Source: a virus. From it: a DNA stretch of 44,373 nucleotides. The notes beneath the pieces are model-generated. The model was not told where the DNA came from, did no database searches, and saw nothing but the letters and a program-made list of their open reading frames with translations. Shown piece by piece: positions 25,942 to 42,382 of the stretch (position 1 is the first letter of the stretch; each line of letters opens with the position of its first letter). The translations under genes were made by a program, and so were the position numbers. Location: positions 1 through 44,373 of the IMG/VR virus record IMGVR_UViG_3300031602_000008. The stretch is one strand, 5' to 3'.

Positions 25942-27573
25942 TTACATTCCAGGCATTCCTGGCATTCCTCCCATTGGTGGCATAGCACTCATAAGATCTT
26001 CATCTTTAATTAAAGCACATTCTGTGGTAAGTATCATACCAGCAACTGACGCTGCATTTTCTAATGCAATTCTAGTTACTTTACAAGGATCAATAATCCC
26101 TGCCTCAAGCATGTCTACATACTTATCATTCTTAGCATCATAACCTGCTCCAAATGATTTAGACATTACTGCTTCTAATTTAACATCAGCACTAACACCT
26201 GCATTCTCACAAATAGTTCTGAATGGTGCTTGTATAGCTCTTGACACAATATCAACACCAGTCATTTCATCATCAATAGGAGACATGTAAGCATTTAAGA
26301 TCAAACCTGTTCTAAGTAAAGCAACACCGCCTCCAGGTACAACACCTTCTTCTACAGCAGCTCTGGTTGCAGCAAGTGCATCATCAACTCTATCTTTCTT
26401 TTCTCTCATTTCTAATTCACTAGCAGCACCTACATAAAGAACTGCTACACCTCCACATAACTTAGCTAATCTTTCTTGTATCAATTCTTTATCATATTCA
26501 CTATCTATAGTATTAATTTGTGACTTAATATTATTAATTCTTTCTTTAATAGACTCAGGGTTACCCATGCCGTTAACAATTGTAGTATTATCTTTATCTA
26601 CAGTTATATTTTCTGCAGTACCTAGCATACTTAAATCTGTATTTTCAAGAGCCATTTCTCCTTCTTCAGTTATAACTGTAGCACCGGTCAAGATAGCAAT
26701 ATCTTCTAGCATAGCTTTTCTTCTTTCACCAAATCCAGGAGCCTTGACAGCTGCAACTTTTAAGCCACCTCTAATCTTATTGACCACTAAGGTTGCTAAT
26801 GCTTCTCCGTCAATGTCTTCAGCAATAATAAGCAAAGACTTACCAGATCCCATAACTAATTCAAGAATAGGCAGCATGTCTTTCATCACAGATATTTTTT
26901 TATCAATGATAAGAATATAAGGATGGCTTAATTCAGCAGCCATTTTATCTTGGTTAGTAACAAAGTAAGGACTTAAGTATCCTCTATCAAACTGCATACC
27001 TTCAACAGTATCCACATATGTTTCCATACCTTTAGCCTCTTCTACAGTTATAACTCCCTCATTACCAACTTTAATAAATGCTTTAGCAATTAAAGAACCA
27101 ATAGTTTTATCACTATTAGCAGATATAGTTGCAACCTGTTCTATCATATCAGAAGACTTACCTACTAAAGTAGATACCTTTCCTAATTGTTCTACAACAA
27201 GACTAACTGCTTTATCTATACCACGCTTTAAGTCCATGGGATTTGCTCCAGCTGCTACATTTTTAAGTCCTTCAGTTACTATAGCTTGAGCTAAAACTGT
27301 AGCCGTGGTAGTTCCATCTCCAGCTAAGTCATTAGTTTTGCTAGCAACTTCTTTTACCATTTGAGCTCCCATATCTTCTAAAGGATCATCCAGTTTTACC
27401 TCCTTAGCAACTGTAACACCATCTTTAGTTATTTGAGGACCCCCAAAAGATTTAGAAATAATTACATTTCTACCTTTAGGGCCCAGTGTTACCTTAACTG
27501 CATTAGCTAAAGCATCTACTCCATTTTTTAAACCATTTCTGGCTTCTACATTAAATTTGATTTTTTCTGACAT
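25942..27573 (-). CDS. groEL: GroEL chaperonin
   Basis: 543 aa, full-length compared with about 548 for bacterial GroEL. Equatorial motifs are intact: [17 protein letters not shown] with D51, AGDGTTTAT with D86, and the late [14 protein letters not shown] followed by PGGGVALL. The C-terminus has the GGM-type tail ([12 protein letters not shown]). Folds proteins in an ATP-driven double ring, presumably phage capsid or replication proteins, or the very large fibres. Bacterial-like sequence implies acquisition from a host. 9 nt after the DNA polymerase gene. No classical groES is visible. Confidence 0.97.
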
Positions 27574-27582
27574 GTCTTTTGT

Positions 27583-29577
27583 TTAAAATAATTTTAATTG
27601 ATTTGAGGATACAGATAATATCCCATTAATTTCTGATTCAATAGCTTGCAAATAATAACCCTTATCAATGTTATAAGAACTCCATTTGGGTTTCACTTCC
27701 ATTTTGTTATACACAGTTTGTAGCCAATTTCCAGCTTCTAATTGAATTTCTCTACCATCCTTTTTGTTTTTCTTTATGATTTTAACTCCTTTCTTAGAGA
27801 CAAAATATCTATTTATTTTTTGAAGTGATTCTTCATTGAATTCACCATCAACTATAGATCTAGCTATTTGCTTCCAATCCCCTTTAGATTTACCTCCTAT
27901 ACAATAATCCAGAATATTCATATTTTCTTCTAGATACTGTTCAGGTAATATATCATTAACAAAATATTGATATATTGCTTTAGGTATTACTAATTTAGAT
28001 TTATTCTTATGCAATTGAAGATCATGAAAATCAAACCTACCTTTTAACTTTACAGGTGCAAAACTAAACTTATCCTTATTTACTTTAAATAAATAATGAG
28101 GTTGAGATTGCTTTAACTCTCTCCATTTAGTAATGTCAACATCAATAAAATCATTAACACCAATATAATTGTTCACATCAGCTAGTATAAGTTTTTGATA
28201 TTTATCATGTTCTAAATTAAGATTGGTTTTATCTTCCCATTCTTTACATATTTGCATATACTCATCAATATATTTTCTAGGAATTAGAGTTTCTACACCA
28301 TCTGTATTTTGTAATAATGCTATAGCACCAGGAATTCTTTCCATAATTTGTTCATACAACATCATCAATGTAAGTTGACCATTGATTGTTATCTTTAAAC
28401 ACAATTCAGGATCATAAAAGAAGCTGTTTTCATCATTACTAAGACCAAAAGTAGAATTAAGTATAATCTTATATACATAGTTCATTGGATTGCTCTTAGG
28501 TATCTTCTTACGCTCTTCAAAGAACCATTCATATTGATCACAAAATGCTTCTTTAGGGAAATGACCAGGTGAAAATTGATTTTTAATAGCAAGATTAGGA
28601 TAAAAACTAGTAACATCTGAAGACATTATTACCATTTCTTCATCACTCTCATAAATACCTTTCTTAGCAGCACCATGAACACCTCCTAAACCAAAATCAG
28701 TTTTAACATCTTTATAGTTAATGCTATATTTAAAGCTTCCTTTAAGTTTGCTTGCATCAACTTCTAAAGATTTAAACCTTTCATGTATTGTTTTAAATTC
28801 TAAGGATGTAAATGAAATATAAGGTAATATTATATCAGATACTTTTATTGTATCCCTATAGGTTCTCATTACTTTAAGATCTCTTTTTTGTATGTTAAGC
28901 TTCTGAGTTAAGAAATAACCAAAAACTTCTTTGCTTATTCTGGGTTCAGATGCACTGAATAAATCAATACCATATGTTTTAGTGAGTTCTTTCCTTAAAC
29001 CTATCTGTGACTTAGCTCTATTAAAGATTTCTTTAGTAGATTTAACATCATTTATACAATATTCTAAGATTACATCTATTTCATCTTGTGTAGTTATCTT
29101 TGTCTCATGATGAATAGGCATATCTAGGATATTTTCCCAATCCATACTATATTGTATCCACTTTAGACTTGAACGTTTAGCTGGATTATCCCAGTGATGC
29201 ATTTTAAATACATCTATTTGACCCATTCTCATCTTCCATTGTGGATAATCACTGAATTCTCTATTGTTAGATTTAGTAATACATTTCTGAGCATATTTAT
29301 ATATAATTGATGCTATCTCACAACCACTTAAATCTTTCCAAAGAAAATAGTTATCTAATATATAATGAGTGATCTGTGCATCAAAAGCTAATCCATTGTA
29401 GGATATATGCCACTCTTTGTTATTTATGTTATTTTCTAAGAACTTAATGAACTCTGGTAAATCATTTTGCAGATCATGAACAACAAAGATTTCAGTTTCC
29501 TGAGTCTTATAATGTTCAAATACACCTGTAAAACAATTGGCCAAGGTTTCATAGTCCATTACCCAATGTTTTTTCAT
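27583..29577 (-). CDS. Family B DNA polymerase with 3'-5' exonuclease
   Basis: 664 aa. Exonuclease residues: D8 and E10 (MDYETL), N61-D66 (NGLAFD), Y173-D177 (YCIND). Polymerase motifs: GVHGA near 299-303, motif A DVTSFYP with D321, motif B KIILNSTFG (K370, N374, G378), and motif C NTDG (424-427). Motif C replaces the usual DTDS, keeping one Asp (D426); metal ligands D321 and D426 remain. Replicates the phage genome. Compact and lacking obvious terminal-protein insertions. A strong terminator lies just upstream, so it probably has separate transcription with groEL. Confidence 0.9.
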   Translation of the reverse strand: MKKHWVMDYETLANCFTGVFEHYKTQETEIFVVHDLQNDLPEFIKFLENNINNKEWHISYNGLAFDAQITHYILDNYFLWKDLSGCEIASIIYKYAQKCITKSNNREFSDYPQWKMRMGQIDVFKMHHWDNPAKRSSLKWIQYSMDWENILDMPIHHETKITTQDEIDVILEYCINDVKSTKEIFNRAKSQIGLRKELTKTYGIDLFSASEPRISKEVFGYFLTQKLNIQKRDLKVMRTYRDTIKVSDIILPYISFTSLEFKTIHERFKSLEVDASKLKGSFKYSINYKDVKTDFGLGGVHGAAKKGIYESDEEMVIMSSDVTSFYPNLAIKNQFSPGHFPKEAFCDQYEWFFEERKKIPKSNPMNYVYKIILNSTFGLSNDENSFFYDPELCLKITINGQLTLMMLYEQIMERIPGAIALLQNTDGVETLIPRKYIDEYMQICKEWEDKTNLNLEHDKYQKLILADVNNYIGVNDFIDVDITKWRELKQSQPHYLFKVNKDKFSFAPVKLKGRFDFHDLQLHKNKSKLVIPKAIYQYFVNDILPEQYLEENMNILDYCIGGKSKGDWKQIARSIVDGEFNEESLQKINRYFVSKKGVKIIKKNKKDGREIQLEAGNWLQTVYNKMEVKPKWSSYNIDKGYYLQAIESEINGILSVSSNQLKLF

Positions 29578-29657: not shown

Positions 29658-30077
29658 TTATTGACCAGGTACTATAAGGTTAGAAACTTTTGTTTCTTTA
29701 GTATCAACAAAAAATTCATTGTAATCAAAATCTCCAGCATTTATAGCAAACATGTGAATAAAAGTTTCAATGTCTTTTTTATCACTTAAATAGAATTCAG
29801 AAAAAGTATCCACTAATCTTCTTTCTTCTTTAACAGTTTTACCAGTTTGTTGATTTGGTGTTTTAAGTCTCATAGGTTGTCCTTCATCATCAAGTTTTGC
29901 AACCATGTGATAAGATTGTTTCATAACCTTACTAATTACAGCTAAGATGCTTGACGAAGGGTCAAACATAGCTTCTACATATGGTGAGTCAGAGCTCACA
30001 GGTATCAAAGTAAATGACTTGGCATTTCTAAAGCTAGAATTTACTAGCATCATGTTCTGTCCAATATTTTTTGTCAT
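29658..30077 (-). CDS. Hypothetical protein
   Basis: 139 aa, no family recognised. Begins MTKNIGQNMMLVNSSFRNAKS and ends FVDTKETKVSNLIVPGQ. The middle has a charged segment around KLDDEGQPMRLKTPN. It is the last gene before a terminator, 11 nt after the 192-aa gene, inside the nuclease and MoxR/VWA neighbourhood, so it may serve the same process. Confidence 0.6.
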   Translation of the reverse strand: MTKNIGQNMMLVNSSFRNAKSFTLIPVSSDSPYVEAMFDPSSSILAVISKVMKQSYHMVAKLDDEGQPMRLKTPNQQTGKTVKEERRLVDTFSEFYLSDKKDIETFIHMFAINAGDFDYNEFFVDTKETKVSNLIVPGQ

Positions 30078-30088
30078 AGTATAAATTT

Positions 30089-30667
30089 TTATTTTGTCAA
30101 AGATATAGAACTTCTTTTTAATAATTGCTTAATTATTTGATTATTATCAAATAAAGTTTCTTTTTCTATATCAGGAGGAGTACATACTTCATATGTTGAT
30201 TCAATAATTTCTTTATCCACACCTAGAAACAATGCGTATTCTTCATGCACTTCTTCAGGAGATAAGAAACCTTGAACATATTCAGATATTTTCCCTTTAG
30301 AGCCAAAGAATTCTATAATACTAATTTTAGTTTCTAAAGTGAGTTGAGAGTATTTACCCTTAACAAATCTTTTATGATCTGATTTTAATTTAGTAAAATC
30401 AAAGATGTATAAATGTCTTTTTTCATCTAGTTCTATACTATCTTCAAATAAAGAATGATTAAGAAGAAAATCCTTTTCAAATTTAATAAAGGTGGGTGTT
30501 TTTTTTGTTTTATATTCACAAAAAAATCTATAATCATCAAGATCATAAACATTATCCCATGCTACATATGTTTGTATAGGAACATGTGCCATTCCTTTTT
30601 TAATATGTAACAAGGGATAAAGAAATACTTTACTCTTTTGAAAGTAGTCAGTGTATACTATAGTCAT
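30089..30667 (-). CDS. Hypothetical protein
   Basis: 192 aa, soluble, aromatic-rich, no family recognised. It starts 1 nt after the end of the nuclease gene region (30669), suggesting coupled translation. Visible segments: VPIQTYVAWDNVYDLDDYRFF and RHLYIFDFTKL. Confidence 0.6.
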   Translation of the reverse strand: MTIVYTDYFQKSKVFLYPLLHIKKGMAHVPIQTYVAWDNVYDLDDYRFFCEYKTKKTPTFIKFEKDFLLNHSLFEDSIELDEKRHLYIFDFTKLKSDHKRFVKGKYSQLTLETKISIIEFFGSKGKISEYVQGFLSPEEVHEEYALFLGVDKEIIESTYEVCTPPDIEKETLFDNNQIIKQLLKRSSISLTK

Positions 30668-30668
30668 A

Positions 30669-31661
30669 TTATAAGTTAACTTTATTAGCTAAGAATTCCA
30701 TAGGTAATGAGTAATCTTTTGTCTTATAATGAAAATCAGCAGTTTTTAGAGCTCCACCTAATCCATCAGCCCAATCATTTATAGTATTAGCACTTACATC
30801 AAACACATATACTTGATTATATTTATCTATAACAATAAATTTAAAGTCTATATCATATTCATCAGCGTTATCTCCTAATGTATCATATACTAACTTCATA
30901 TATATAGCAGCTTGTAACCAATAATTATAAAAATCTATTGTTTCTTTAAAATCTGAGATAGTTTTACCTGTTGTTTTTAAATCACATATAGTTACTTCTT
31001 TAGAATCATGATTAATTTTATAATAATCTATATAACCATGTAAACCAAAAGGTGAATTAATTAATTTAGATTTAAGATACTTTTCACTATGGGTCTCTAC
31101 TGGATCTAAATCAAAATCTGTCTGTACTTCAGAGAATAATCCCATAACTTCAGTATTATTTTTAAGATATTCAACTCTTTCAGTACACCTTAGTAAAGTA
31201 TCTTGGTCAACTACATCAATATTACTGTTACCTAAGAATTCCCAGTATGGTTCATTATCTTCTGTTCTTATCTTAGTTATCCTTGACTCATCAGCTTTAA
31301 GAGATTGAAATAGATTTAAATTCTTTAATGAATCTAAAATTATATGATCTTCACAAGAAGCTAGTGTTGCTGCATCAGTATGAAGAGCCATATCTTTTAA
31401 TACTTTTCTAATATTATCACTAGGAGCTTTCCCCGGTACAACATTGAATTTATTAGAAATATTTTCTGGTTCAAATAGCATGCAGTGAATAAGCTTCCCT
31501 TCTATTAAGTGCTTATCTGTTCTGACCTCACGGTCCCATAATATATAGTCCTTATAGAATAAGGATGGTGAAAACAATAATTTATTTAATGAAGAGTAAC
31601 TAAAGCAAAAATCTTTATTTGCATAAAAAGCTTCTTCTTTTTGTATATTTATATTTAACAT
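30669..31661 (-). CDS. PD-(D/E)XK exonuclease (RecE/Cas4-like)
   Basis: 330 aa. Catalytic pattern: H59 in EGKLIH, D212 in GYID, D227 and K229 in ICDLKTTG, and Q250/Y254 in YNYWLQAAIY. This is the RecB/Cas4-type nuclease core (DUF3799-like) of phage recombination exonucleases. Likely acts on DNA ends with the Sak4-like ATPase and SSB. Overlaps the 398-aa gene by 7 nt. Confidence 0.85.
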   Translation of the reverse strand: MLNINIQKEEAFYANKDFCFSYSSLNKLLFSPSLFYKDYILWDREVRTDKHLIEGKLIHCMLFEPENISNKFNVVPGKAPSDNIRKVLKDMALHTDAATLASCEDHIILDSLKNLNLFQSLKADESRITKIRTEDNEPYWEFLGNSNIDVVDQDTLLRCTERVEYLKNNTEVMGLFSEVQTDFDLDPVETHSEKYLKSKLINSPFGLHGYIDYYKINHDSKEVTICDLKTTGKTISDFKETIDFYNYWLQAAIYMKLVYDTLGDNADEYDIDFKFIVIDKYNQVYVFDVSANTINDWADGLGGALKTADFHYKTKDYSLPMEFLANKVNL

Positions 31662-32851
31662 TCTATTTTCATATTTTCATTTATTTCTTTTTTTACCTGT
31701 AAAGATTCTAAGTCAACCTTAAATACATCAGCTTCTTTTCCTACTAGACTTCCAAGAATATTTATATATAATTTTTTTCTGGTATAATCTACAGCAAATT
31801 TAGTTAATTTATCACACTTAATCAATTGTTGAATATAATTGTTATAACTATAAATAGTAGCTGTAGAAGAACTTCCTTCAAAATCTTTCATTCTAATTCT
31901 AAATGATCTAACATTTACACTATTCCAATTATTAGTATCTTTTAACCAATCATATTCCCAATAAAATATAGCAGATGCAACATCAAAAGATTTATTAATA
32001 TTACAATTAGCAAGCATTTCTAGAGCCAATGTTCTATCCTCTTTATTAGAGCTATGTATCATTTTTGTTATATCATCTAATTGATGTGTCTCTAATACAG
32101 CTAAGTCAGCATCAATAATATCACATATATCAGTATCATAAACTTTATTAGTATTAGAATTAACTAATTCATGAAATACTTTAATGTCTGATGGATCTTT
32201 AATGATTACATCACGCAACGTAGGACTTTTATCACGTAAATCTTGGAAATATTTATCTATTAAATTATTAGCATCAAGAAATAATGGTTTATGGATTGAT
32301 ATAGTACTCTCATAACCATGATAATTTTTAGTAAATGATACACGTGCATCTCTTGGTAATTCTGCTAACATATCAATAGCTTTTTGTCTTCCTTTTTCAG
32401 ACAACAGATTTTTATTTTTTAGAAAAACTAGAAAATCATAAAATTCTTTAAAGTTATGATGAGAAGTCCAACTTGTTTCAAGTAATTGTTTTATTGTTTT
32501 AACAGAAACAACATGTAAATCTGCTTTATCAGGATTTCTTATTACTTTCATATTAAATTTATCCTTTAATAAATCCACTTTTTGTCTAGGTAAATCCAAG
32601 TTAGGAAATCTATATATGCTCTTATCTTTAAGATCAATATTTTCTTCTATATTAAATAGACAAAAATTACTAAGTTCTTTTTTTGATATATCATATCCCT
32701 CTACTGTTCCTATATATAATCCACTTTCTTTCAATGTAAATGCAGAATCTAAAAGTTGACATTTATTAAATTCATCATTTATTGATGTAGTACATGCAAC
32801 ATTATCATCTTTATTGATAATATCTAGTATTAATTTATATCTTTTTATCAT
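31655..32851 (-). CDS. Paralogue B of the MoxR/VWA cassette
   Basis: 398 aa, no named family recognised. It shares an arrangement with the 347-aa neighbour: a KADLHVVSVKTI segment (109-120) aligns with QADLIVGHDDII, and DICDII...NKEDRTLALEML aligns with DTETIL...DDRYLASKVI, in the same order, followed by a Trp-rich helical region. It overlaps the nuclease gene by 7 nt and the paralogue by 4 nt (ATGA). Probably a substrate or adaptor of the adjacent ATPase/VWA pair; inference from context. Confidence 0.65.
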   Translation of the reverse strand: MIKRYKLILDIINKDDNVACTTSINDEFNKCQLLDSAFTLKESGLYIGTVEGYDISKKELSNFCLFNIEENIDLKDKSIYRFPNLDLPRQKVDLLKDKFNMKVIRNPDKADLHVVSVKTIKQLLETSWTSHHNFKEFYDFLVFLKNKNLLSEKGRQKAIDMLAELPRDARVSFTKNYHGYESTISIHKPLFLDANNLIDKYFQDLRDKSPTLRDVIIKDPSDIKVFHELVNSNTNKVYDTDICDIIDADLAVLETHQLDDITKMIHSSNKEDRTLALEMLANCNINKSFDVASAIFYWEYDWLKDTNNWNSVNVRSFRIRMKDFEGSSSTATIYSYNNYIQQLIKCDKLTKFAVDYTRKKLYINILGSLVGKEADVFKVDLESLQVKKEINENMKIEC

Positions 32852-33891
32852 TTTATTGAATTTTTTAAATATTGTTGATATTCTTTTTTAACTGCTACTT
32901 TAAAGGTATAAAGATCTCTATTGTTTATGCTTATTTGTTTTCTTACAATAGGTTCTAAATATCTAAATGTAGTTTTACATAATTTATCTTCTGATTCTAA
33001 CCATAAAATCATATCCTGAGCACTTCTTCTTTCAAATTTTACAAAATTAGATTGTGAAACCCAGTATTGAATATCTTTATCTCTATTAAAATTGTGTAAG
33101 ATACTACTGCAGTCTTGTGCAAATTGCCACAACAAATGATAATTTTTTGTATAATCTATAGCTGGTATAACTTTAGATGCTAAATATCTATCATCTGAAC
33201 CTGAACTCAATTGAAGTTTTAAATCAGCTAATAATTGCTCATCCATAATCATTGTATTAGCAGATTTATGTAATATAGTTTCTGTATCTACCACTGATAA
33301 ATCAGTTGTTTCAATTAAATGAGCTAAGTTAATTGCCAATCCTGTTATTAACCATTGGTCATAAAGAGAATCTTCAATGTTTAAATTATAATACCTGATC
33401 TTTTCAGTTATTTTACTAGTAACAATTACATTATTAGGATGACTATCAATTAAAACATGTAAAGGTGATCCTGCATTACTTGCTCCACTTGTTATTTCAT
33501 AATTCCATAACTTATTCATCATGTTAGTACTGGGGATATTCTCACCATTTTCTAAGTTCATAATAATATCATCATGACCAACAATAAGATCTGCTTGAGT
33601 ATAATCATTAGTGACAGTAATCTTATGTTCTTTTAATGCAGCTTTAAGTCTGTCCTGAGATACACTGCATTTTGGAAGAATAAAAGCTTTCTTTTTATGT
33701 ATAAACGTATTCCCAGATTCAGTTGGAACTGTTAAGGAACTGTGTATTTTTTCATATGTTGTTTGATCTTGAGTTACTAATACATCTTCTACTATAGAAC
33801 CAGCAATAACCCCATAAATAGGGTCATTGTCTAGTCCATAGTGAGTTAATGCATCAGTATTAAAATCTTGATATACTGATTTATTTGCCAT
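32848..33891 (-). CDS. Paralogue A of the MoxR/VWA cassette
   Basis: 347 aa, no named family recognised. Residues 68-110 and 201-300 align in order with the 398-aa protein downstream, showing an old tandem duplication. C-terminus is basic and helical (FKVAVKKEYQQYLKNSIK). It starts 4 nt after the MoxR ATPase gene ends and overlaps the next gene by 4 nt, so all three are translationally linked. Confidence 0.65.
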   Translation of the reverse strand: MANKSVYQDFNTDALTHYGLDNDPIYGVIAGSIVEDVLVTQDQTTYEKIHSSLTVPTESGNTFIHKKKAFILPKCSVSQDRLKAALKEHKITVTNDYTQADLIVGHDDIIMNLENGENIPSTNMMNKLWNYEITSGASNAGSPLHVLIDSHPNNVIVTSKITEKIRYYNLNIEDSLYDQWLITGLAINLAHLIETTDLSVVDTETILHKSANTMIMDEQLLADLKLQLSSGSDDRYLASKVIPAIDYTKNYHLLWQFAQDCSSILHNFNRDKDIQYWVSQSNFVKFERRSAQDMILWLESEDKLCKTTFRYLEPIVRKQISINNRDLYTFKVAVKKEYQQYLKNSIK

Positions 33892-33895
33892 AATT

Positions 33896-35173
33896 CTATT
33901 TCATTGTCATTTTGATAATTTCAGGAATCATCATTAATTTATTAAACTTTTGTTTATTACCATTAAAAATAGTTCTAATAATTAAATACTTAAGATCATT
34001 AGTAAAATAATCTTTTGTAGCTAAAGACTTCAATCTATCAGTAATTTTCTGGTTTATAGTATTTTCCTTAGAATATACTACAGCATAGTTACCCATTCTA
34101 GTTGCAAGAGTTGCAGCTATATCAGCACGATATGTATCATCTTGCCCAATACAACTACGTAATTCACCTAAAATATATGATTCATTTTCATGTGTCAATA
34201 AATCTTTTGGTGAAACTAATTTATCTAATTTATTATTAATAAATGTAGTAAACATAGAAGCAAATGCATCTCCAACAGATCCTTCACCAATCATTTGAAT
34301 TAATGATAAGTTCTCTTCAAACTTTTCAAAACTTGAGATTGAATTAAAGAATGTTGTTATAGATCTTGCATTAGTTTCTTGAGTTACAAGTTCAGGGTGT
34401 AGTAATAGAAAGTTAATACATCTTGAATCTATACCTGCACTCTCCGCCCATTGGGCCCATACATTAACATCAAACTTTAGATTAGCAGTTACATATCTAG
34501 TTTTCTGTGCAGAATCCACACTGTTAACCATATAGTCTCCATTATCTGGATTTGCTGTTAACATAATATGCCAGTCCTTTGGTAATGTCCATGAGATGTA
34601 AGTTTGACGGTCAATTAATTCCATTACTGCTTGAATAAATCTTGTGTCAGCTCTATTCCAGTCATCAAGTAATAATATACCACCCTCTTTTGCATCTGCA
34701 ATCCATTCTGGTGCACAATAAGACATCCTGTTCTTACCAGTCATTTTGTATCCATTTTTTAGATACTCTTGTACAGCAAGTTCATCAATCCACATACCAA
34801 CTTTTTTTGTAATAGTTGCTGGCATTTTTGCTAGATCTGATGCTGCAGCAGTTCTTTGTGCTGCTGTATAATTTAGGTCATCAATTGCTTTATTAGGATT
34901 AGATATTGTTTTTTCCTTATACATTTGAAATTGTCTAACAGGAAAACCAACTAAATCTCCTAATTCTTCTATCTGTGCAAGATTCAGCTTTACAAATTTT
35001 AATTTGTTTTCTGCAGCTAATTCTACTATAGTGGAAGTTTTACCAATACCTGATTCACCTACTACTTCTATAGATACTGGTGATTTTCCATTTTTTTGTA
35101 AAAATCTATTATTTTCTATAATATGATTTACAAATCCTTTTAATTCTGTTACGTTTAAATTTACTTGTGCCAT
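33896..35173 (-). CDS. MoxR-like AAA+ ATPase
   Basis: 425 aa. Walker A GESGIGKT (39-46), Walker B GGILLLDDWNRA (D170, D171), sensor 1 LTANPDN (N208), and a possible arginine finger near R226. The insert before Walker B with WIDE and the following SAQKTRY fit MoxR/dynein-type AAA+ proteins. These usually pair with VWA proteins as chaperone-like remodelling machines; here the VWA gene is 11 nt upstream. Substrate unknown; possibly a phage or host complex. Confidence 0.88.
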   Translation of the reverse strand: MAQVNLNVTELKGFVNHIIENNRFLQKNGKSPVSIEVVGESGIGKTSTIVELAAENKLKFVKLNLAQIEELGDLVGFPVRQFQMYKEKTISNPNKAIDDLNYTAAQRTAAASDLAKMPATITKKVGMWIDELAVQEYLKNGYKMTGKNRMSYCAPEWIADAKEGGILLLDDWNRADTRFIQAVMELIDRQTYISWTLPKDWHIMLTANPDNGDYMVNSVDSAQKTRYVTANLKFDVNVWAQWAESAGIDSRCINFLLLHPELVTQETNARSITTFFNSISSFEKFEENLSLIQMIGEGSVGDAFASMFTTFINNKLDKLVSPKDLLTHENESYILGELRSCIGQDDTYRADIAATLATRMGNYAVVYSKENTINQKITDRLKSLATKDYFTNDLKYLIIRTIFNGNKQKFNKLMMIPEIIKMTMK

Positions 35174-35184
35174 TTTCTTTTTTA

Positions 35185-36348
35185 TTAATTTAATTTAATT
35201 ACTTGTCCTGGTAACTCATCATTCATACTAGATATACTGCTTAAACACCATAAAGTATTCTTTGGGCAGTTATCTGGTGGGTATGCTTCACCATCTGTTA
35301 AATATACTAGAGCTGTATAAACTCCTTTCTTTTCATTATAGTGGTCAATTACAGGTTGGAATGATGTTCCACCTCTACCATGTATTTCCCAATTCTTTTT
35401 GGGTTTAAATTCTTCTACTGTTCTTAAGCTAGTATCACACTGAGCTACTGTAATCTTGTGACCTGTTTTACACATATGTGCTAGTTCATTAAAAAATTCT
35501 TTAAGCTCATCATTATTTACAGAACCTGATGTGTCAACACCAACAAGAATGTGATTCTTAAACTTAATCTTAAGTCCGGGATTAGCAGCATATCTTTTAT
35601 TATACTTACGCCTCAGCTTCTTAGTATATACTATAGAAGAGTTTCCTACAAATCTTTTAAGATAACCTTTCCAATCAAACTTAGCAGGTTCAATATGTGT
35701 AAGTCTATGTATAATATCAGACATTTCTCCTGGTATATTACCACACTTTTTAACTGTTTGTTCTGCAGATTCTTTTAATTGATGCTCTACTTGTTTCTGT
35801 AATAGTTTTTTATCTGGTTCAGATAAATCATCAAATTCATTCCATGTACTATGACAATATTCAGAGTCTCCATCCATTTGATCTAATAAACCATCTAATG
35901 AAGGACATGTATTATCTTCTTGTGCTTTCTCTAATAACTCATAATACTTTTTAGTACCTGCTTTTTTAGGAAGATTTAATTCTGGAAAACTACTTAACAA
36001 CAACCCGCCATCTGGCAGATTACTTTCTATTATATATTGATTAATTTCTAAATCTGCAGCTATATTAAATAACTTATGATCTGAATATAAATCTCTTAAT
36101 AATAAATGCCCAAATGCTATATGCAATAGTTCATGTTTTATTAACCCATATCTATGATCTTCACTTAAGTTCATATAGAACTCAGGGTTTATAGTCAATT
36201 GCATACCAATACCACGCTTGCTTACTCCTGCTGTAGGAATTTGCTCACTGTAGATTTTATTGATACCAATCAAAAAGAGCCCATAAAAGGGCTCTGTAAA
36301 AATTAATGTTTTGGTAGTTCTAGCTACCTGGTCTTGGATATTTATCAT
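35185..36348 (-). CDS. DUF2201-type protein with HExxH and VWA domains
   Basis: 387 aa. N-terminal domain: TEPFYGLFLIG (18-28) and a metallopeptidase-like HELLH (72-76) with FNIAADLEIN as a likely third-ligand region. C-terminal VWA: MIDAS DTSGS (272-276), T328 in GGTSF, D352 in LTDGE. Such proteins are the classic partners of MoxR ATPases. The conserved N-terminal match fixes the start at ATG 36348, which overlaps the 106-aa gene by 29 nt. A terminator-like hairpin lies within codons 19-26. Confidence 0.85.
   Translation of the reverse strand: MINIQDQVARTTKTLIFTEPFYGLFLIGINKIYSEQIPTAGVSKRGIGMQLTINPEFYMNLSEDHRYGLIKHELLHIAFGHLLLRDLYSDHKLFNIAADLEINQYIIESNLPDGGLLLSSFPELNLPKKAGTKKYYELLEKAQEDNTCPSLDGLLDQMDGDSEYCHSTWNEFDDLSEPDKKLLQKQVEHQLKESAEQTVKKCGNIPGEMSDIIHRLTHIEPAKFDWKGYLKRFVGNSSIVYTKKLRRKYNKRYAANPGLKIKFKNHILVGVDTSGSVNNDELKEFFNELAHMCKTGHKITVAQCDTSLRTVEEFKPKKNWEIHGRGGTSFQPVIDHYNEKKGVYTALVYLTDGEAYPPDNCPKNTLWCLSSISSMNDELPGQVIKLN
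36272..36294 (-). terminator. Intragenic terminator-like hairpin in the VWA gene
   Basis: Minus strand reads GAGCCC TTTTAT GGGCTC TTTTTG: a perfect 6-bp GC-rich stem, 6-nt loop and T5 tract, in the transcribed direction. It lies inside conserved codons 19-26 of the VWA gene. It could attenuate transcription when ribosomes lag, or be a coding coincidence. Confidence 0.55.
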
Positions 36349-36640
36349 CTCCTGTTATTTTATTTAATATATGTTTGTAGACTAAATTCATTTCCTCTAC
36401 ATCTATAAAGGTATAAAGGGTATCTGCTGTTCTTATTTTAAACTTAAATCTAATAGCATCAACAAAATTCTTTCTATCTTCAAATAGTAATGCTTTAGAC
36501 ATAAGTTGATCAAGCATCTCTCTATCTTCATATTGAGAAGAATATATTTGGAAAGCTATATCTTTATCTTCAGGTAAGCCTTGCAGCATTTCTTTTAGTC
36601 TGAAAAATTCATCAATTGTTATTATTTTCTTTTTTGTCAT
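36320..36640 (-). CDS. Hypothetical protein
   Basis: 106 aa, helical and charged (IDEFFRLKEMLQGLPEDKD; RKNFVDAIRFKFKIRTADTL). No family recognised. Overlaps both neighbours by 29 nt (RusA upstream, VWA downstream), implying tightly coupled translation. Confidence 0.6.
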   Translation of the reverse strand: MTKKKIITIDEFFRLKEMLQGLPEDKDIAFQIYSSQYEDREMLDQLMSKALLFEDRKNFVDAIRFKFKIRTADTLYTFIDVEEMNLVYKHILNKITGDDKYPRPGS

Positions 36641-37004
36641 TTTTTAGTATTTCAATATAAACACCTGGATTTTCTTTATCATAACTATACTGAACAAAGA
36701 CTGGTAAAATAAATTCACAATTATCATCTTCAATCCATCCTGCTTTGACCATATCATCTTGTACTGTTTGTGCAGGATTAATATAATCAAACTTATGACG
36801 GCTTCCTCTAATAAATGTAAAAGATATCTTTGCTGGTAATGAATGTTTAGCTAGCTCAGCTTTAAACTCCTCTGCATATTTTGCATAATAATCTTTAGCT
36901 ATTTTTCTATAATTCATTACAGCTTTACTAGCTATAAAGTATTTACCTGTCCATCTTCTTCCATTTTTACTGCTGGGCACTGAGCCCGGTATAAACCATT
37001 TCAT
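36612..37004 (-). CDS. rusA: RusA-family Holliday junction resolvase
   Basis: 130 aa. Matches RusA: N-terminal strand MKWFIPGSVPSSKN, then the catalytic region FDYINP with D73, VQDDMVKAGWIEDDN with D83/D84 and D93/D94, and a closing beta-strand. Resolves branched DNA made during phage recombination or replication. 2 nt after the primase gene. Confidence 0.88.
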   Translation of the reverse strand: MKWFIPGSVPSSKNGRRWTGKYFIASKAVMNYRKIAKDYYAKYAEEFKAELAKHSLPAKISFTFIRGSRHKFDYINPAQTVQDDMVKAGWIEDDNCEFILPVFVQYSYDKENPGVYIEILKNDKKENNNN

Positions 37005-37006
37005 AT

Positions 37007-37984
37007 TTATTGTTTTAATGTCTTTTTTAATAATGGTTTTAGCATAGCGTGAACATCATCTAAGCCATGTTTTGCCATTGCATCTGATATGTCTTTGCAT
37101 ATAATTGGTACAAAACCATTGATTTTATATGTTTCTGCATATCTTTTAATAGCATTATTACCCGCTTCATCATTATCAAAAAGAGTTATTACTTTTTTAT
37201 ACTTCTTCTTAAGATGTGTAATTATATGAGGTTTAATCATTGTATTTTCACTATCAGGAGCTATAACTTCTATATTATAACCTATACCTTTAATACACAT
37301 TGCATCTTTAAGAGAGGAACAAATAACTAAATAAGGTTGATTAAATTCTAATTGATCAAAACCCTGAAGATAGGGTTTTACTTTAAGAAACTTATGAGAC
37401 TTACTAAGTGGTTGATATATTTTATATATTTCACCGTTCTTATCAAAGTAACCATAACAATTATTACTAGTTATTTTTAGTTTTTTAATTTCACCATTTT
37501 CCTCTTTTATTAAATTATAATACTCCACTGGTTTAACATTATAAGTATTAAGCATATTCATTCCTATTCTATAAGGTAACCAATATTCAGTGTCTCTTAC
37601 ATTCCACTGTCTTATTTTAATAAAATCAACTTCCCATTTACTTTGAGGTTGAAATTTTTGTTCAATATATTCAGATGATTTTACATGTGCGTTGTAATCT
37701 TGTACTATTTTTCTCATAGCTGCAGAAAATTCTAAGTTAAACATTAATTTAACTAAGTCAATTTTGTTGCCACTTTTACCAGTTGAAAAATCTTTAAACT
37801 TATATTGCATTATATTTTTATCTACATATATGCAAAAACTTGGTGTTTTTTCATTAGGATTAAAGACTGATACAATTTTTACATCTTGTCCAGTTAATCT
37901 CTCTGATAATTCTAAATAGTATTGGAAAACCCACGTACTTGGTACATCTGATCCTTCTAGTACAAAGTTTTTAGTATTAAACAT
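37007..37984 (-). CDS. DnaG-like primase with Toprim domain
   Basis: 325 aa. The N-terminal region FNPNEKTPSFCIYVD (41-55) and FKDFSTGKSGNKIDLVKL matches the primase fold just after the zinc-binding domain, but the CHC2 cysteines and histidine are absent. The Toprim domain has LFDNDEAG (D270, D272). The usual Glu strand reads ICSSLKDAMCI, so the acidic residue there is replaced. Probably a phage primase working with the DnaB-like helicase. An efficient terminator separates it from the SSB gene. Confidence 0.82.
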   Translation of the reverse strand: MFNTKNFVLEGSDVPSTWVFQYYLELSERLTGQDVKIVSVFNPNEKTPSFCIYVDKNIMQYKFKDFSTGKSGNKIDLVKLMFNLEFSAAMRKIVQDYNAHVKSSEYIEQKFQPQSKWEVDFIKIRQWNVRDTEYWLPYRIGMNMLNTYNVKPVEYYNLIKEENGEIKKLKITSNNCYGYFDKNGEIYKIYQPLSKSHKFLKVKPYLQGFDQLEFNQPYLVICSSLKDAMCIKGIGYNIEVIAPDSENTMIKPHIITHLKKKYKKVITLFDNDEAGNNAIKRYAETYKINGFVPIICKDISDAMAKHGLDDVHAMLKPLLKKTLKQ

Positions 37985-38000
37985 GATGCTAAAATATTAA

Positions 38001-38039
38001 AAAGAATTGGGGCTAGCACTATACTAACCCCAATCTTTT
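38001..38039 (-). terminator. Rho-independent terminator after the SSB gene
   Basis: Minus strand: AAGA-TTGGGGTTAG, a 7-nt loop, CTAGCCCCAATTCTT then T's. The stem has about 13 pairs with one bulge and one G-U. It lies between SSB (stop 38048) and primase (start 37984). Confidence 0.8.
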
Positions 38040-38047
38040 AATAAATA

Positions 38048-38722
38048 TTATAGATCAAAGTCATCTCCTGATCCAGCAGCTGGTTCAAAGCTGGTGGTTG
38101 TAGGAGCAACACTTTTAACTATTGCTCTAAAATGATTTTTATCCGTTTTATCAAATGTTAATAGGTTTGATCCTTCAGTATCTAATGCTTCTAATGGAGC
38201 ACCCTGTCTAGTTCTTTTAGGTAAAAACAAATCATTATTTACATAACCTTCTTTGTTTTCCCATTCACGTGCTCCTAAGCATGCATTAATATAACCTGTA
38301 TTAGATAATGCAACATTACACTTAACCATAAAGTCTTCAATTGTATTTGCTTCAATAGCATCTAATTCAGTTCTCTTATCTACTACTTCAGATAAAAATA
38401 CCATAGCTTTCAATACTTCAGTATCTCTACTAATTTCATTACCATTATTTAATGTAGCATCTTTAAAAGGATAAGGTGAAAATCTCACTCTACCCACTTG
38501 ACCTTCATAACGTGGGCCATTAGGATTATTCATATCTTTTAAAAAACCATTGAATTCTCCAACTACTGGCTCTCCTTCTATATGTAACATAATATTAAAT
38601 GCATCTGCATCATATGGTGTTTGATCAAATGATATAGAATTAATCTTTACTTTGTGATCTCCTGTTCCTATTACTGGTTTTGTTCCACCTGTTCCGGCAG
38701 ACATGTCTTTAGTACTTAACAT
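38048..38722 (-). CDS. Single-stranded DNA-binding protein (phage type)
   Basis: 224 aa. A beta-rich body consistent with an OB fold (VKINSISFDQTPYDADAFNI near the start), and an acidic, flexible C-terminus ending GSGDDFDL as in SSBs that recruit partners by their tail. Followed by a Sak4-like ATPase gene 28 nt upstream, a common pairing. Sequence family not certain, so the call rests on tail and context. Confidence 0.65.
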   Translation of the reverse strand: MLSTKDMSAGTGGTKPVIGTGDHKVKINSISFDQTPYDADAFNIMLHIEGEPVVGEFNGFLKDMNNPNGPRYEGQVGRVRFSPYPFKDATLNNGNEISRDTEVLKAMVFLSEVVDKRTELDAIEANTIEDFMVKCNVALSNTGYINACLGAREWENKEGYVNNDLFLPKRTRQGAPLEALDTEGSNLLTFDKTDKNHFRAIVKSVAPTTTSFEPAAGSGDDFDL

Positions 38723-38750
38723 AATTTACTTTTTTTTAATTAATTTATTA

Positions 38751-39434
38751 TTACTCTTCATACTTTTTGATGCAGTCTATTACATACTGCAGGTTGTTTG
38801 GGATGAAGAATTCTTCAAACATACCCATTGGTGATTTACAAGTGTTCTCTCCATTGTTTTGAGTTTCAAAACCATATTCAAGTTCACCATCATCTTTTTT
38901 ATTTACTTTACCAAATAACACAATAGAGAATAGACCTTCTAAAGTCAAAGTATTATCTATCATTTTACCTATAGTTTTAGCTTTAATTTTTCTATTTCCA
39001 TTTATGTCAGTTGAATCTTCTGAGTGAGTTAAGAAAATTACAGTTAAGTCTTCTCTTAAATCTTTAGGTAACTTTGCCACCATGGCAAGATTAGCTGCAA
39101 TTTGAGTAAACTTATCATAACCTTTCTCATTAGCTCTATCAAAATATTCAAAAGAACTCATATATTGCCAATCATCTACCACTAAAGTTTTGATTGCAAG
39201 TCTTTTTTGATCTACATAATTAATTGCCTTGATGATACCTGCAGAAGAAGATGCAGATGTTAAATTACCATCAGGGTTATCCTTATTGATCTGTGTATAT
39301 TGCTTTTTCCAACCTTTAAACGGCAAAGGTTTATTTGCTATGTTTATAATGAAAGTCTCATCTGGGTTTAATGTTCTGATTGAGGTAGACTTTCCTGTAC
39401 CTGAGTCAGCAATTACTAATACGCTTTGTGCCAT
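38751..39434 (-). CDS. Sak4-like RecA-fold ATPase
   Basis: 227 aa. Walker A ADSGTGKST (9-17), Walker B TLVVDDWQY with D87/D88, and a later VIFLTHSED segment. Matches the AAA_24/Sak4 group of phage single-strand-annealing proteins, which cooperate with SSB in recombination. Located between the SSB and a helicase operon. Confidence 0.82.
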   Translation of the reverse strand: MAQSVLVIADSGTGKSTSIRTLNPDETFIINIANKPLPFKGWKKQYTQINKDNPDGNLTSASSSAGIIKAINYVDQKRLAIKTLVVDDWQYMSSFEYFDRANEKGYDKFTQIAANLAMVAKLPKDLREDLTVIFLTHSEDSTDINGNRKIKAKTIGKMIDNTLTLEGLFSIVLFGKVNKKDDGELEYGFETQNNGENTCKSPMGMFEEFFIPNNLQYVIDCIKKYEE

Positions 39435-39435
39435 T

Positions 39436-40014
39436 TTATTTATTAAATTTATTGATTACTTTAGTTAATGTTATTAATGTCTGGTTTATTTCCTCTAATT
39501 TGTCCACTAATGATGATTCTGGTGTTGCATCAGGATTAGGTAAATCAAATAAAGTCATAGTTTCATTTTTATCAGTTCCTTTCATACCTTCTTCAAGAGC
39601 AGTTTGTTTATCCCAACCTCTACTAGTTACATCATTAATTACTTTTAATTCTGTTACAGGAATTAAATGTCTTTGAAATCCTGAGTTAGAAGTAATTAGT
39701 TCATACTCTTCTTTCCAGTGTGGATTATATTTATGAAGATATAAAGTTCTTTTAGGATCTTCAGAATCATAATCTATACTTACAAATTCAGTATATACAT
39801 CTTCTTCCTTTTCTAGTTCACTAGGAAAGAAGCTTACATGTAGTTCATCTTTACCTGATGGCCTGTATGCCATCTTAGGAATATATAGAACATTTTTATG
39901 ATTGCTTATATCAAAGTAATCTTGATGTTCTTCTTTTAATTTTAATACTTTTTCTTTACGTTGTGCAGGTGTTAGCCCCATATCTTTATTATTTATATTT
40001 TTTGTATTTATCAT
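39436..40014 (-). CDS. Hypothetical protein
   Basis: 192 aa, soluble, acidic, with an N-terminal LTPAQRKEKVLKLKEEH helix, a beta-rich middle (NVLYIPKMAYRPSG) and a C-terminal coiled coil (VDKLEEINQTLITLTKVINK). No family recognised. ATGA overlap with the helicase gene and 1 nt from the Sak4-like gene. Confidence 0.6.
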   Translation of the reverse strand: MINTKNINNKDMGLTPAQRKEKVLKLKEEHQDYFDISNHKNVLYIPKMAYRPSGKDELHVSFFPSELEKEEDVYTEFVSIDYDSEDPKRTLYLHKYNPHWKEEYELITSNSGFQRHLIPVTELKVINDVTSRGWDKQTALEEGMKGTDKNETMTLFDLPNPDATPESSLVDKLEEINQTLITLTKVINKFNK

Positions 40015-40964
40015 CTTCTTTGTTGCTGAGCTGGTGTTGCCATTTCTTCAATTTGCATTTGTTCAAACTTTGCTTTAAAGAAACTCATTCTTGCATCACC
40101 GTTTCTTGCCTTTAAGAAGTGAAGCACCAATGTTCTATCATTTTCTATCATATATCTATCAGGTCCATAGAATCTAATCTTCTGTTTAGCTGGCCTGTTG
40201 ATACCTATTAACATATCAGCATGTTGTAACATAGCATCTGAACCAAATATATCTGATTCAAGAATATAATTACCATACTTACCATCAATAGCTCTATCTG
40301 GGCTATCAATATTTCTGTTTAATTGTGACAGGGCAATAAATAAACAAGGATAATCTCTTTTACATTGTGTAAAAAACTCTCCTAATTCAAATAACATATC
40401 TAATGTATTATTCTGATAAGGTGCTCTCTTTACTAACATAGTATGATCTAAAGTAATTATAGTTTTAACCCCTTTATGTAAACTCATATACATATCAATT
40501 TGCTCACGCATTTGATTTACAGTCATAGGAGTACTAATTATATCTACCGGATTTTTAACTCTACCTTTAGCATATTGATGACAATCATTCAAAGTAGAGG
40601 TATTTAATATTGAACCTGCACTACATAATTCTTTATATGTTTTACCAGTAACAGAACTAAACTCTCTAATTGCTGAGGTTCTACCAACCATTTCAAATTG
40701 AAACTCTAATACTCTAAAGTCATCATCAGGATTAAGTGCAAATGATTCCCTAATGATTTGATCTTTAATTAAAGTCTTACCTGAACCTGGTCTTCCACCT
40801 ATTACTGTAAGAGTATTCCACTCTAAACCATCAGTGGCAGCATCATTAAACTTAGGCCACGGAGTATATATAGATTTTTCATCTCCAGTTGACCTAGCAT
40901 ACATATATTTAAGTGCCTCATTGAAGGCAGCATATTGTCCAATCCATGATTCTTTCTTTTTCAT
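40011..40964 (-). CDS. DnaB-like replicative helicase (C-terminal domain only)
   Basis: 317 aa. RecA-like core: Walker A GGRPGSGKT (56-64), E91 in FQFEM, Walker B TIITLD (D173), and ALSQLNR with a following conserved KARNG. The N-terminal domain of cellular DnaB (about 150 aa) is missing, as in several phage helicases. Unwinds the fork ahead of polymerase and primase. Overlaps both neighbours by 4 nt. Confidence 0.85.
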   Translation of the reverse strand: MKKKESWIGQYAAFNEALKYMYARSTGDEKSIYTPWPKFNDAATDGLEWNTLTVIGGRPGSGKTLIKDQIIRESFALNPDDDFRVLEFQFEMVGRTSAIREFSSVTGKTYKELCSAGSILNTSTLNDCHQYAKGRVKNPVDIISTPMTVNQMREQIDMYMSLHKGVKTIITLDHTMLVKRAPYQNNTLDMLFELGEFFTQCKRDYPCLFIALSQLNRNIDSPDRAIDGKYGNYILESDIFGSDAMLQHADMLIGINRPAKQKIRFYGPDRYMIENDRTLVLHFLKARNGDARMSFFKAKFEQMQIEEMATPAQQQRR

Positions 40965-41551
40965 ACTACTTTATCTTTAAAATGTTCATCTTCTGTACTT
41001 ACACCTTCCTTAATCATATCACAATAATCTGCTAGAGTTGAATGCTTAACTCTATGCTTATCTTGCTTACATATGAAGTATTGACTGGTTTGCATATATA
41101 AATAGTCAGCATCTCTATATTCATTTACATACATTCTAGTTGCTTTAAGTACATCAAGCCATGTATGATCATAAGTATCAAAGAACCACCTGAATGCTTC
41201 TCCAAGAGCTTTTACATTATTTCTAGCAGGTTTACCACTAGGTAATTTCTTTGCTGGAAATATTTCTCTATAACTATTAATAGTATCTACAAAGTTTTTA
41301 CCCATTAATTGAATATCAGTTTTCTTTTTTGATTTAATAAAATAATTATCTAACTGCACTATAAGTAATTTTGCTTTTGGAGTCATTGTATATAGGTTAT
41401 CAGTTTTAACTAGATAACCTTCTTTAACTAACTTGTCCTTATCTTCTTGTGTTATTTGAGATAAAGTAATTCCTTGCTTCATCCCAAACAGTATTAATGA
41501 TTGATTTGGTGTCAAGTTTGCTTGTAATATTTTTTGGAATAGTTCCCACAT
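40961..41551 (-). CDS. Putative helicase loader / replication initiator
   Basis: 196 aa. An N-terminal winged-helix-like region (LTPNQSLILFGMKQGITLSQ) followed by a helical domain (WLDVLKATRMYVNEYRDADY) resembling phage replisome organisers. It overlaps the DnaB-like gene by 4 nt and is first in the operon behind promoter 41672-41702. Function is inferred from context. Confidence 0.45.
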   Translation of the reverse strand: MWELFQKILQANLTPNQSLILFGMKQGITLSQITQEDKDKLVKEGYLVKTDNLYTMTPKAKLLIVQLDNYFIKSKKKTDIQLMGKNFVDTINSYREIFPAKKLPSGKPARNNVKALGEAFRWFFDTYDHTWLDVLKATRMYVNEYRDADYLYMQTSQYFICKQDKHRVKHSTLADYCDMIKEGVSTEDEHFKDKVV

Positions 41552-41671
41552 ATGATTATATTTCTATTATTCTATTTATATGCATCTAAAATTTGCTTGT
41601 TACTGTAGATACATCTTGATCAGCTGTAAGTTCCTGGTTTTTAGATATTTGATTTTGATTTTTATAGTTTA

Positions 41672-41702
41672 CAAATATAACAAATATTACCAGTCTATAC
41701 AA
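41672..41702 (-). promoter_or_regulatory. Bacteroidota-type promoter of the helicase operon
   Basis: Minus strand reads TTG-N20-TATATTTG, with -7 (TAnnTTTG) at 41672-41679 and -33 TTG at 41700-41702. This spacing fits the Bacteroidota consensus closely. It lies at the end of the uracil-DNA glycosylase gene and would give a leader of about 115 nt before ATG 41551. Confidence 0.7.
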
Positions 41703-42382
41703 GTTTTACCTTGTTTTTCTAATGCTGTGTTTACTTTATTAAATATATTTTTATGTTCCCATCTTTCTTTATTATAAATAGCAGACATTGGATGGGCCAC
41801 CTTAAATATTAATTGATTTGATAATAACGGAATCCATTCTTCAGCTTTTTTACCCATTAGAACAAATATTATTTTAGAATTATGTCTATTAATATTATCA
41901 AATAAATATGAAGTAAAGCTTTTCCAAATCCCATAATGTGAACCCACTCTATTAATTTCACATGTTAATGCAGTATTAAGTAATAACACACCCTGGTTAG
42001 ACCAACGTCTTAAATCATTATTATGATTTTCATGGTCTCCATGTAATGCATTAAACATATATTCAAGAGCTTTTTCTGTTTTATCTTTTTTAGAACAACT
42101 AAATGCTATTCCGTCAGCAACTCCTAATTGAGTATAAGGATCTTGTGTAACTATTACTACTTTTAAGTCACTATATTTACATTCATAAAAATTATTGAAA
42201 ATTTCTTTGAACTTAGGTGTAAATCTTCTACCATTTTCTACATTATCTACTAATGTTGAAACAATGTGATCAAAGCTTAAGCCGTTTATATATGGAGATA
42301 ACATTTTGTCCCATCCACTGTCTGTCAGTTTAGTTTCAAGTGTTTCTCTTATATTTGTTATGTTTATTTCTATATTTTCCAT
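41687..42382 (-). CDS. Uracil-DNA glycosylase (family 1-like)
   Basis: 231 aa. TQDPY with catalytic D81, GIAFS (91-95), LLLN (N136), and HP (197-198) in the minor-groove loop. Removes uracil from DNA. The usual GQDPYH reads TQDPYT and HPSPLS reads HPMS, so the motifs have drifted but keep the catalytic Asp and His. The presence of this enzyme argues against uracil-substituted phage DNA. Confidence 0.88.
   Translation of the reverse strand: MENIEINITNIRETLETKLTDSGWDKMLSPYINGLSFDHIVSTLVDNVENGRRFTPKFKEIFNNFYECKYSDLKVVIVTQDPYTQLGVADGIAFSCSKKDKTEKALEYMFNALHGDHENHNNDLRRWSNQGVLLLNTALTCEINRVGSHYGIWKSFTSYLFDNINRHNSKIIFVLMGKKAEEWIPLLSNQLIFKVAHPMSAIYNKERWEHKNIFNKVNTALEKQGKTCIDW

Follow-up and report, generated by a model that had tools for sequence, protein, structure and literature searches.

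What does a phage do with a MoxR-like AAA+ ATPase and a VWA protein that are encoded, with several mutually related proteins, among its replication genes? This question is raised by the uncultured virus record IMGVR_UViG_3300031602_000008, whose whole stretch of 44,373 bases is called the window here. On its minus strand, in order of transcription, lie genes for g106, the VWA protein, the MoxR-like ATPase, two paralogues (par1 and par2) and a nuclease. A first-pass annotation made from the sequence had described a tightly packed four-gene MoxR/VWA machine, and all five open reading frames from VWA to the nuclease, as well as their spacings, were found as it had given them: an 11-nt gap between VWA and MoxR, a 4-nt gap between MoxR and par1, a 4-nt overlap of par1 with par2 and a 7-nt overlap of par2 with the nuclease gene. 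The four genes stand as placed, but the count does not, since g106, a relative of par1 and par2, precedes VWA just beyond the span described there. The architecture and ancestry of this module are well supported by the analyses set out below, and its function is what we infer from them.

The VWA protein carries two Pfam domains over cut-off (PF13203, 1.6e-15; PF09967, 5e-15) and matches phrog_1314 (5.7e-67). The residues of its HExxHxxxxH motif (H72, E73, H76 and H81) and of its metal-ion-dependent adhesion site (MIDAS; D272, S274, S276, T328 and D352) are invariant in the aligned homologues, including those of Moorella, MinM2, BpSp and Ab09 phages, and so is an NxAxDxxxN motif. Its earlier description as a DUF2201-type HELLH and VWA protein with an intact MIDAS is thereby confirmed. 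PHROGs calls phrog_1314, the DUF2201 metallopeptidase-VWA family, an 'HNH endonuclease', a name that has reached many phage records; the sequences carry HExxH and MIDAS motifs. For the ATPase, the closest solved sequence in the PDB is midasin; it matches the ATPase family phrog_1297 (8e-35), and Pfam AAA_5 falls below its cut-off (7e-4; 20.0 bits against 22). The Walker A motif (GxxGxGK), sensor-1 residue N208 and arginine finger R226 are invariant. The catalytic glutamate of Walker B, in contrast, is an aspartate (Asp171) in every checked member of the phage group, whereas the Moorella, MinM2, BpSp and Ab09 homologues have glutamate at this place. The Walker motifs had both been called intact; this holds for Walker A and not for Walker B. 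Because of the replacement we name the protein MoxR-like and not a canonical active member, and its ATP turnover may be slow.

In order to examine whether the module recurs, IMG/VR was scanned with MoxR, which gave 346 relatives (the best 80 were retrieved), and with par1, which gave 39 loci (IMG/VR loci are labelled L and a number). These loci overlap and some are duplicates, and there are about 60 distinct sequences per gene. They belong to a large group of phages that are uncultured and mostly marine. Gene order in these loci is fixed, rusA-(g106)-vwa-moxR-par1-par2-nuc-g192-g139-polB, mostly with spacings of a few nucleotides; moxR adjoins par1 in 102 loci, par1 adjoins par2 in 94 and par2 adjoins nuc in 89. 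This recurring order is not due to chance, and it was found in about 90–100 related IMG/VR loci and again in a more diverged clade. Median identity to the window is 87% for MoxR, 82% for VWA, 66% for par1, 47% for g106 and 41% for par2, making par2 and g106 the least conserved of the set.

Several observations on these loci stand by themselves. Roughly a dozen related loci or more (for example L003:6874-7260 and L013:9583-9969) have an additional gene of about 128 residues (MGRYYxGDIEGKFxFxxQSSxAADRFGV...) separating vwa from moxR, so that these two need not adjoin directly. L091 and L095, two different contigs of one sample, each about 71.7 kb long, both start inside moxR at the same point, 541 bases before par1, where either the assembly of both broke or the genome ends. 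Another two contigs of the phage group (L222 and L223, the first of whole-phage size at 114,697 bp) sit in metagenome-assembled genomes labelled Pseudomonadales and Campylobacteraceae; with two unrelated host groups and one full-length phage they were probably mis-binned, and a host assignment from them was rejected. In a 114-kb relative, a weak match (E 9e-6) of L136 (G001 positions 64-714) to the crAss001 major capsid protein hints at a remote connection with the crAss-like phages.

More distant loci were reached by a scan seeded with the VWA alignment. The operon is kept in far more diverged phages, and twelve of these loci have a single partner-size gene between MoxR and the nuclease. A tree of MoxR and VWA, rooted on the Moorella and MinM2 phages, places single-copy and two-copy phages in separate clades, with a support of 0.96 for the single-copy clade. 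Two single-copy loci were checked: Sak4 is kept (AAA_24), and a SegE-type GIY-YIG nuclease replaces RusA while the block stays, so the module outlasts the exchange of its neighbours. A search of two contigs of this clade (113 and 110 kb, possibly incomplete) for a second partner copy at another place turned up none. In some single copies of par2 type the C-terminus is an acidic tip, DDFEWF, similar to the tip DDFDL of a protein in the window that resembles single-stranded-DNA-binding proteins (SSB-like), a hint at contacts with the replisome. In the distant clade and some other loci, g106 is preceded by a DUF6915-type gene (L143:7218-7559; also L047, L060, L148, L151, L191, L194 and L195); the window showed none in this position.

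These single-copy relatives settle how par1 and par2 are related. Compared directly, the two profiles match weakly (P 0.004), which nonetheless ranks third among 105 comparisons of 15 operon families, after two P-loop/RecA pairs. The single copies match both profiles in hhalign: the par1 family matches the L148 type at 98.2% over 264 columns and the L143 type at 95.5% over 310 columns, and the par2 family matches the L143, L191 and L148 types at 99.4%, 98.8% and 96.5%; six unrelated operon families used as controls in this comparison gave P above 0.05. Common ancestry of par1 and par2 is therefore well supported, and the third rank among the pairs together with the bridging single copies ruled out chance similarity. 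The two diverged paralogues of the first-pass annotation are thus real, also by the shared layout of their predicted structures, and the motifs it had paired (QADLIVGHDDII with KADLHVVSVKTI, DDRYLA with EDRTLA) occupy the same columns of a 50-sequence alignment. In the gene tree, L148 and L168 join par1 and the other ten single copies join par2, each with 99/96 support, and forcing all single copies into one clade was rejected (p-AU 0.039). The split of the single copies into par1-like and par2-like disfavours a recent duplication in the clade of the window. The duplication is probably old and followed by differential loss, a reading held with moderate confidence since the branches are long and the margin modest.

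The family has a third member. In hhalign, an alignment of 57 g106-type sequences gave 95.3% with the par2 family and 90.7% with the par1 family, in both cases on the C-terminal domain, and 95.2% over 102 columns with the L143-type single copies; eleven further operon families reached no more than 0.4%. By these matches g106 is a stand-alone copy of a helical domain shared with par1 and par2. Some loci seemingly lack g106 by BLAST; a g106-type open reading frame is present in most of them. In the distant genomes, open reading frames of about 135–161 residues occupy the g106 position upstream of VWA and are matched by both partner profiles (E 5e-7 to 3e-4). Judged by these profiles, the partner family comprises three related proteins flanking the MoxR-VWA pair.

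AlphaFold2 models of par1 and par2 (mean pLDDT, the predicted local distance difference test, 87.9 and 87.3) have much the same order of elements, an N-terminal alpha/beta domain and an all-helical C-terminal domain. BRCT domains fill almost the whole list of PDB structure matches for par2 (best PARP1 BRCT, Z 6.8 over 78 residues at 3.0 A) and make up most of the best rows covering residues 61–213 of par1 (Z up to 7). The fold scores (Z 5–7) stay below 8, Foldseek E is at least 0.16 and the Pfam BRCT profile matches neither protein, for which reasons a BRCT-like fold of the N-terminal domains is suggestive, not proven. The helical part drew armadillo/HEAT-like rows at Z of about 5, uninformative for helical folds. 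The two proteins did not resolve into confident, unrelated known folds; both appear BRCT-like and helical. In BFVD, par1 has four significant full-length matches (E 5e-8 to 4e-7), one in 'crAss-like virus sp.' and two in Podoviridae sp. ctz6O13; by the latter two, paired copies may exist outside our set. No catalytic residue pattern common to the partner family was found in its alignment, which suits binding proteins.

The setting is a phage replication operon, as the first-pass annotation had it. PHROGs identifies DnaB, Sak4, primase, RusA and DNA polymerase B, and the operon runs from the DnaB-like helicase through Sak4, the SSB-like protein, primase and RusA to the nuclease, two small genes and the family B polymerase (Table 1). 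The PD-(D/E)XK nuclease is likewise as annotated, over the Pfam cut-offs for PDDEXK_1 (26.4 against 22 bits) and DUF3799 (28.3 against 26), with phrog_412 at 1e-15. The holin and other long plus-strand genes lie on the strand opposite to this operon.

Table 1. Coordinates of the module, its motifs and domains, and the surrounding operon in the window
Feature	Position	Strand	Remarks
g106	36320-36640	minus	106 aa; stand-alone copy of par1/par2 helical C-terminal domain (by profile); third partner-family member
VWA	35185-36348	minus	387 aa; DUF2201_N putative metallopeptidase domain and DUF2201 VWA domain; Pfam, PHROGs
HELLH of HExxHxxxxH metallopeptidase motif	36121-36135	minus	VWA residues 72-76
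DTSGS of MIDAS motif	35521-35535	minus	VWA residues 272-276
MoxR-like AAA+ ATPase	33896-35173	minus	425 aa; phrog_1297
Walker B acidic pair Asp170-Asp171 (for Asp-Glu)	34661-34666	minus	MoxR
par1 (paralogue 1)	32848-33891	minus	347 aa; BRCT-like domain (predicted) and helical C-terminal domain
par1 BRCT-like domain (predicted)	33253-33711	minus	residues 61-213, insertion included
par2 (paralogue 2)	31655-32851	minus	398 aa; par1 paralogue; fastest evolving core gene
par2 BRCT-like domain (predicted)	32105-32635	minus	residues 73-249, insertion included
PD-(D/E)XK nuclease, exonuclease VIII-like	30669-31661	minus	330 aa; Pfam PDDEXK_1 and DUF3799, phrog_412
g192, conserved neighbour	30089-30667	minus	position kept in 84 loci
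g139, conserved neighbour	29658-30077	minus	position kept in 82 loci
Family B DNA polymerase, end of conserved block	27583-29577	minus	phrog_1252, 7.6e-133
Upstream replication genes (RusA, primase, SSB-like, Sak4, DnaB helicase, others)	36612-42382	minus	PHROGs

Some further features of the window were recorded. The SSB-like protein (38048-38722) has no Pfam or PHROGs match; its acidic C-terminal tip is conserved, as in single-stranded-DNA-binding proteins. The polymerase ends in QLxLF (QLKLF; QLTLF or QLSLF in relatives), which resembles a sliding-clamp binding motif. Directly downstream of it, at 25942-27573, a GroEL is encoded (phrog_5725, 4e-176), also found in some related loci at a varying distance. 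Two very large plus-strand open reading frames (1173-6875 and 12419-17812; 1900 and 1797 residues) have no PHROGs match. Bacteroidota-type promoters were not more frequent than expected by chance.

As to function, the reading that we put first, at somewhat less than an even chance, is a machine that remodels the replisome or DNA ends, with par1, par2 and g106 as adaptors. The MoxR ring would spend ATP, perhaps slowly given its Walker B aspartate, on moving the VWA protein; the MIDAS site of this protein would hold an acidic peptide of the client until the ring drives its release, by analogy with the studied MoxR-vWA systems, in which peptide capture is followed by ATP-driven release (PMC7159879). 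The partners would dock on the ring or the VWA protein through their shared helical domain, and their BRCT-like domains would bring the clients, either DNA ends or replisome and recombination proteins such as the neighbouring nuclease and polymerase. Such nucleoprotein complexes could then be loaded, unloaded or recycled, possibly with a cut by the metallopeptidase. A client in replication or recombination is favoured because the block lies inside the replisome genes, with primase on one side and nuclease/polymerase on the other, in both of two deeply separated clades. That conservation falls from MoxR and VWA to par1, g106 and par2 is to be expected if a core machine works with adaptors that vary. 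DNA ends or replication proteins would be fitting targets for BRCT-like domains, as in the AAA+ loader subunit RFC1, which binds 5' DNA at a site flanked by its BRCT domain and its AAA+ module (PMC9293004). Several points weigh on the other side: the Walker B aspartate could mean weak or no ATPase activity, the BRCT matches are weak, the MoxR-VWA pairs of other phages come without the partner family, and in cyanophage S-TIM5 the pair adjoins virion genes. We also infer the complex and its clients, and membership of an operon speaks at most for co-expression. A bolder version, which we regard as a long shot, is a new type of AAA+ replication machine in which the MoxR ring and its metallopeptidase-VWA arm would use the BRCT-like adaptors to recognise DNA ends or primer junctions and load or remove replication or recombination proteins; if true, an AAA+ machine would do for these phages the work of clamp loaders, helicase loaders or ClpX elsewhere.

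The example of S-TIM5 leads to an alternative in which structural proteins are the substrates of the MoxR-VWA/metallopeptidase pair, which would fold or trim them during virion assembly or maturation while the partners hold these clients. A virion role has been proposed for jumbo phages and reported for an archaeal virus tail (PMC7824862), and in N4-like roseophages structural genes lie near gp24/gp25 (PMC4193335); we consider it unlikely here, as the block stays in a replication operon, opposite in strand to the holin and the long plus-strand genes, in two diverged clades, and as the fold suggested for the par domains is widespread in DNA metabolism. The low conservation of par2 and g106 and the loss of one partner copy in the sister phages would also suit host takeover or counter-defence, the machine dismantling or cleaving a host complex while par2 and g106 evolve fast at a changing host target. 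Fast divergence fits loosely constrained binding proteins equally well, however, and retention this strict, with the gene order unchanged in diverse phages, rather resembles that of a core function; PADLOC models were unmatched except for a weak P-loop hit, on which a defence-system reading was rejected as well, and takeover seems improbable to us. Lastly, par1, par2 and g106 might be not adaptors but clients, matured or disassembled by the metallopeptidase/AAA+ pair. Their genes are tightly coupled to it and the metallopeptidase motif is fully conserved, but the alignment of the partners showed no conspicuous common motif resembling a cleavage site, and par copy number varies while MoxR and VWA stay, which makes this very doubtful.

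The overall picture of a recurring MoxR/VWA module with a duplicated, undescribed partner in a replication operon stood; the MoxR-VWA pair itself is not new in phages and is already known from N4 (gp24/gp25) and jumbo phages. The DUF2201 VWA matches 514 phage records (E 0.01), and in those inspected a MoxR-like ATPase lies beside it, except in Vibrio phage SRILMA (none annotated adjacent). A demonstrated function of the pair in bacteriophages was not found in the literature searched, and DUF2201 was not found in paper titles or abstracts. The partner family itself is new to the libraries searched. In agreement with the first-pass annotation, which could assign the paralogues to no family, neither Pfam and PHROGs nor solved structures and cultured phages yielded it (tblastn against cultured relatives gave no match for par1 and no credible one for par2), and no match at E below 0.08 lies beside the MoxR-VWA pairs of N4, Ab09, Moorella, MinM2, BpSp, S-TIM5, FFH2 and SRILMA phages. 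Ten crAss-like or related genomes held neither partner nor DUF2201, yet BFVD lists the 'crAss-like virus sp.' match; a literature search, thin on subscription journals, returned no report of the family.

Among phage systems, N4 gp24/gp25 (Schitoviridae) and relatives are alike in that a MoxR-like ATPase adjoins a DUF2201 metallopeptidase-VWA protein and replication genes are often close by; adjacency of this type was counted for the ATPase and DUF2201 genes in 109 related loci. Both belong to the core gene set of N4-like phages, and their transcription falls in the middle period, with gp24 listed as unknown and gp25 by its vWFA domain only (PMC4193335). These pairs differ in having the ATPase gene first, the Walker B glutamate where checked and no par1, par2 or g106 homologue nearby, and their VWA proteins are about 22–30% identical to that of the window. 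Jumbo phage group 2.2 shares the two-component design, a MoxR-vWA pair with an N-terminal metallopeptidase domain; the passages of Iyer et al. 2021 on this group (PMC7824862) propose virion assembly and mention no partner family, whereas the pair of the window lies in a replication operon. Haloviruses also encode AAA-VWA pairs (PMC7911831). Bacterial ternary systems likewise combine MoxR, vWA and a dedicated third component, namely VMAP, iSTAND, FtsH or a beta-propeller (PMC7159879), whereas the third component of the window is BRCT-like and helical by prediction, has no Pfam match, comes in three related copies and is found in phages. None of those four components turned up when the neighbours were searched with Pfam, a search made without profiles dedicated to them. 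RavA-ViaA, CbbQO and midasin also use a MoxR-clade AAA+ protein with a client-gripping, MIDAS-bearing VWA protein, and have partners other than those of the window. To our knowledge their VWA proteins have no metallopeptidase domain. The fold predicted for residues 61–213 of par1 and 73–249 of par2 may be that of the BRCT domains of PARP1, XRCC1, MCPH1 and RFC1, from which the two proteins differ in a long insertion, the lack of a significant sequence match and the helical C-terminal domain attached. Compared with these systems, the module of the window contributes what may be a BRCT-like protein family of phages, a natural Walker B aspartate across a whole group of MoxR-like ATPases, and a MoxR-VWA pair with defined, mutually related partners fixed among replisome genes, which narrows its possible job and gives components to test.

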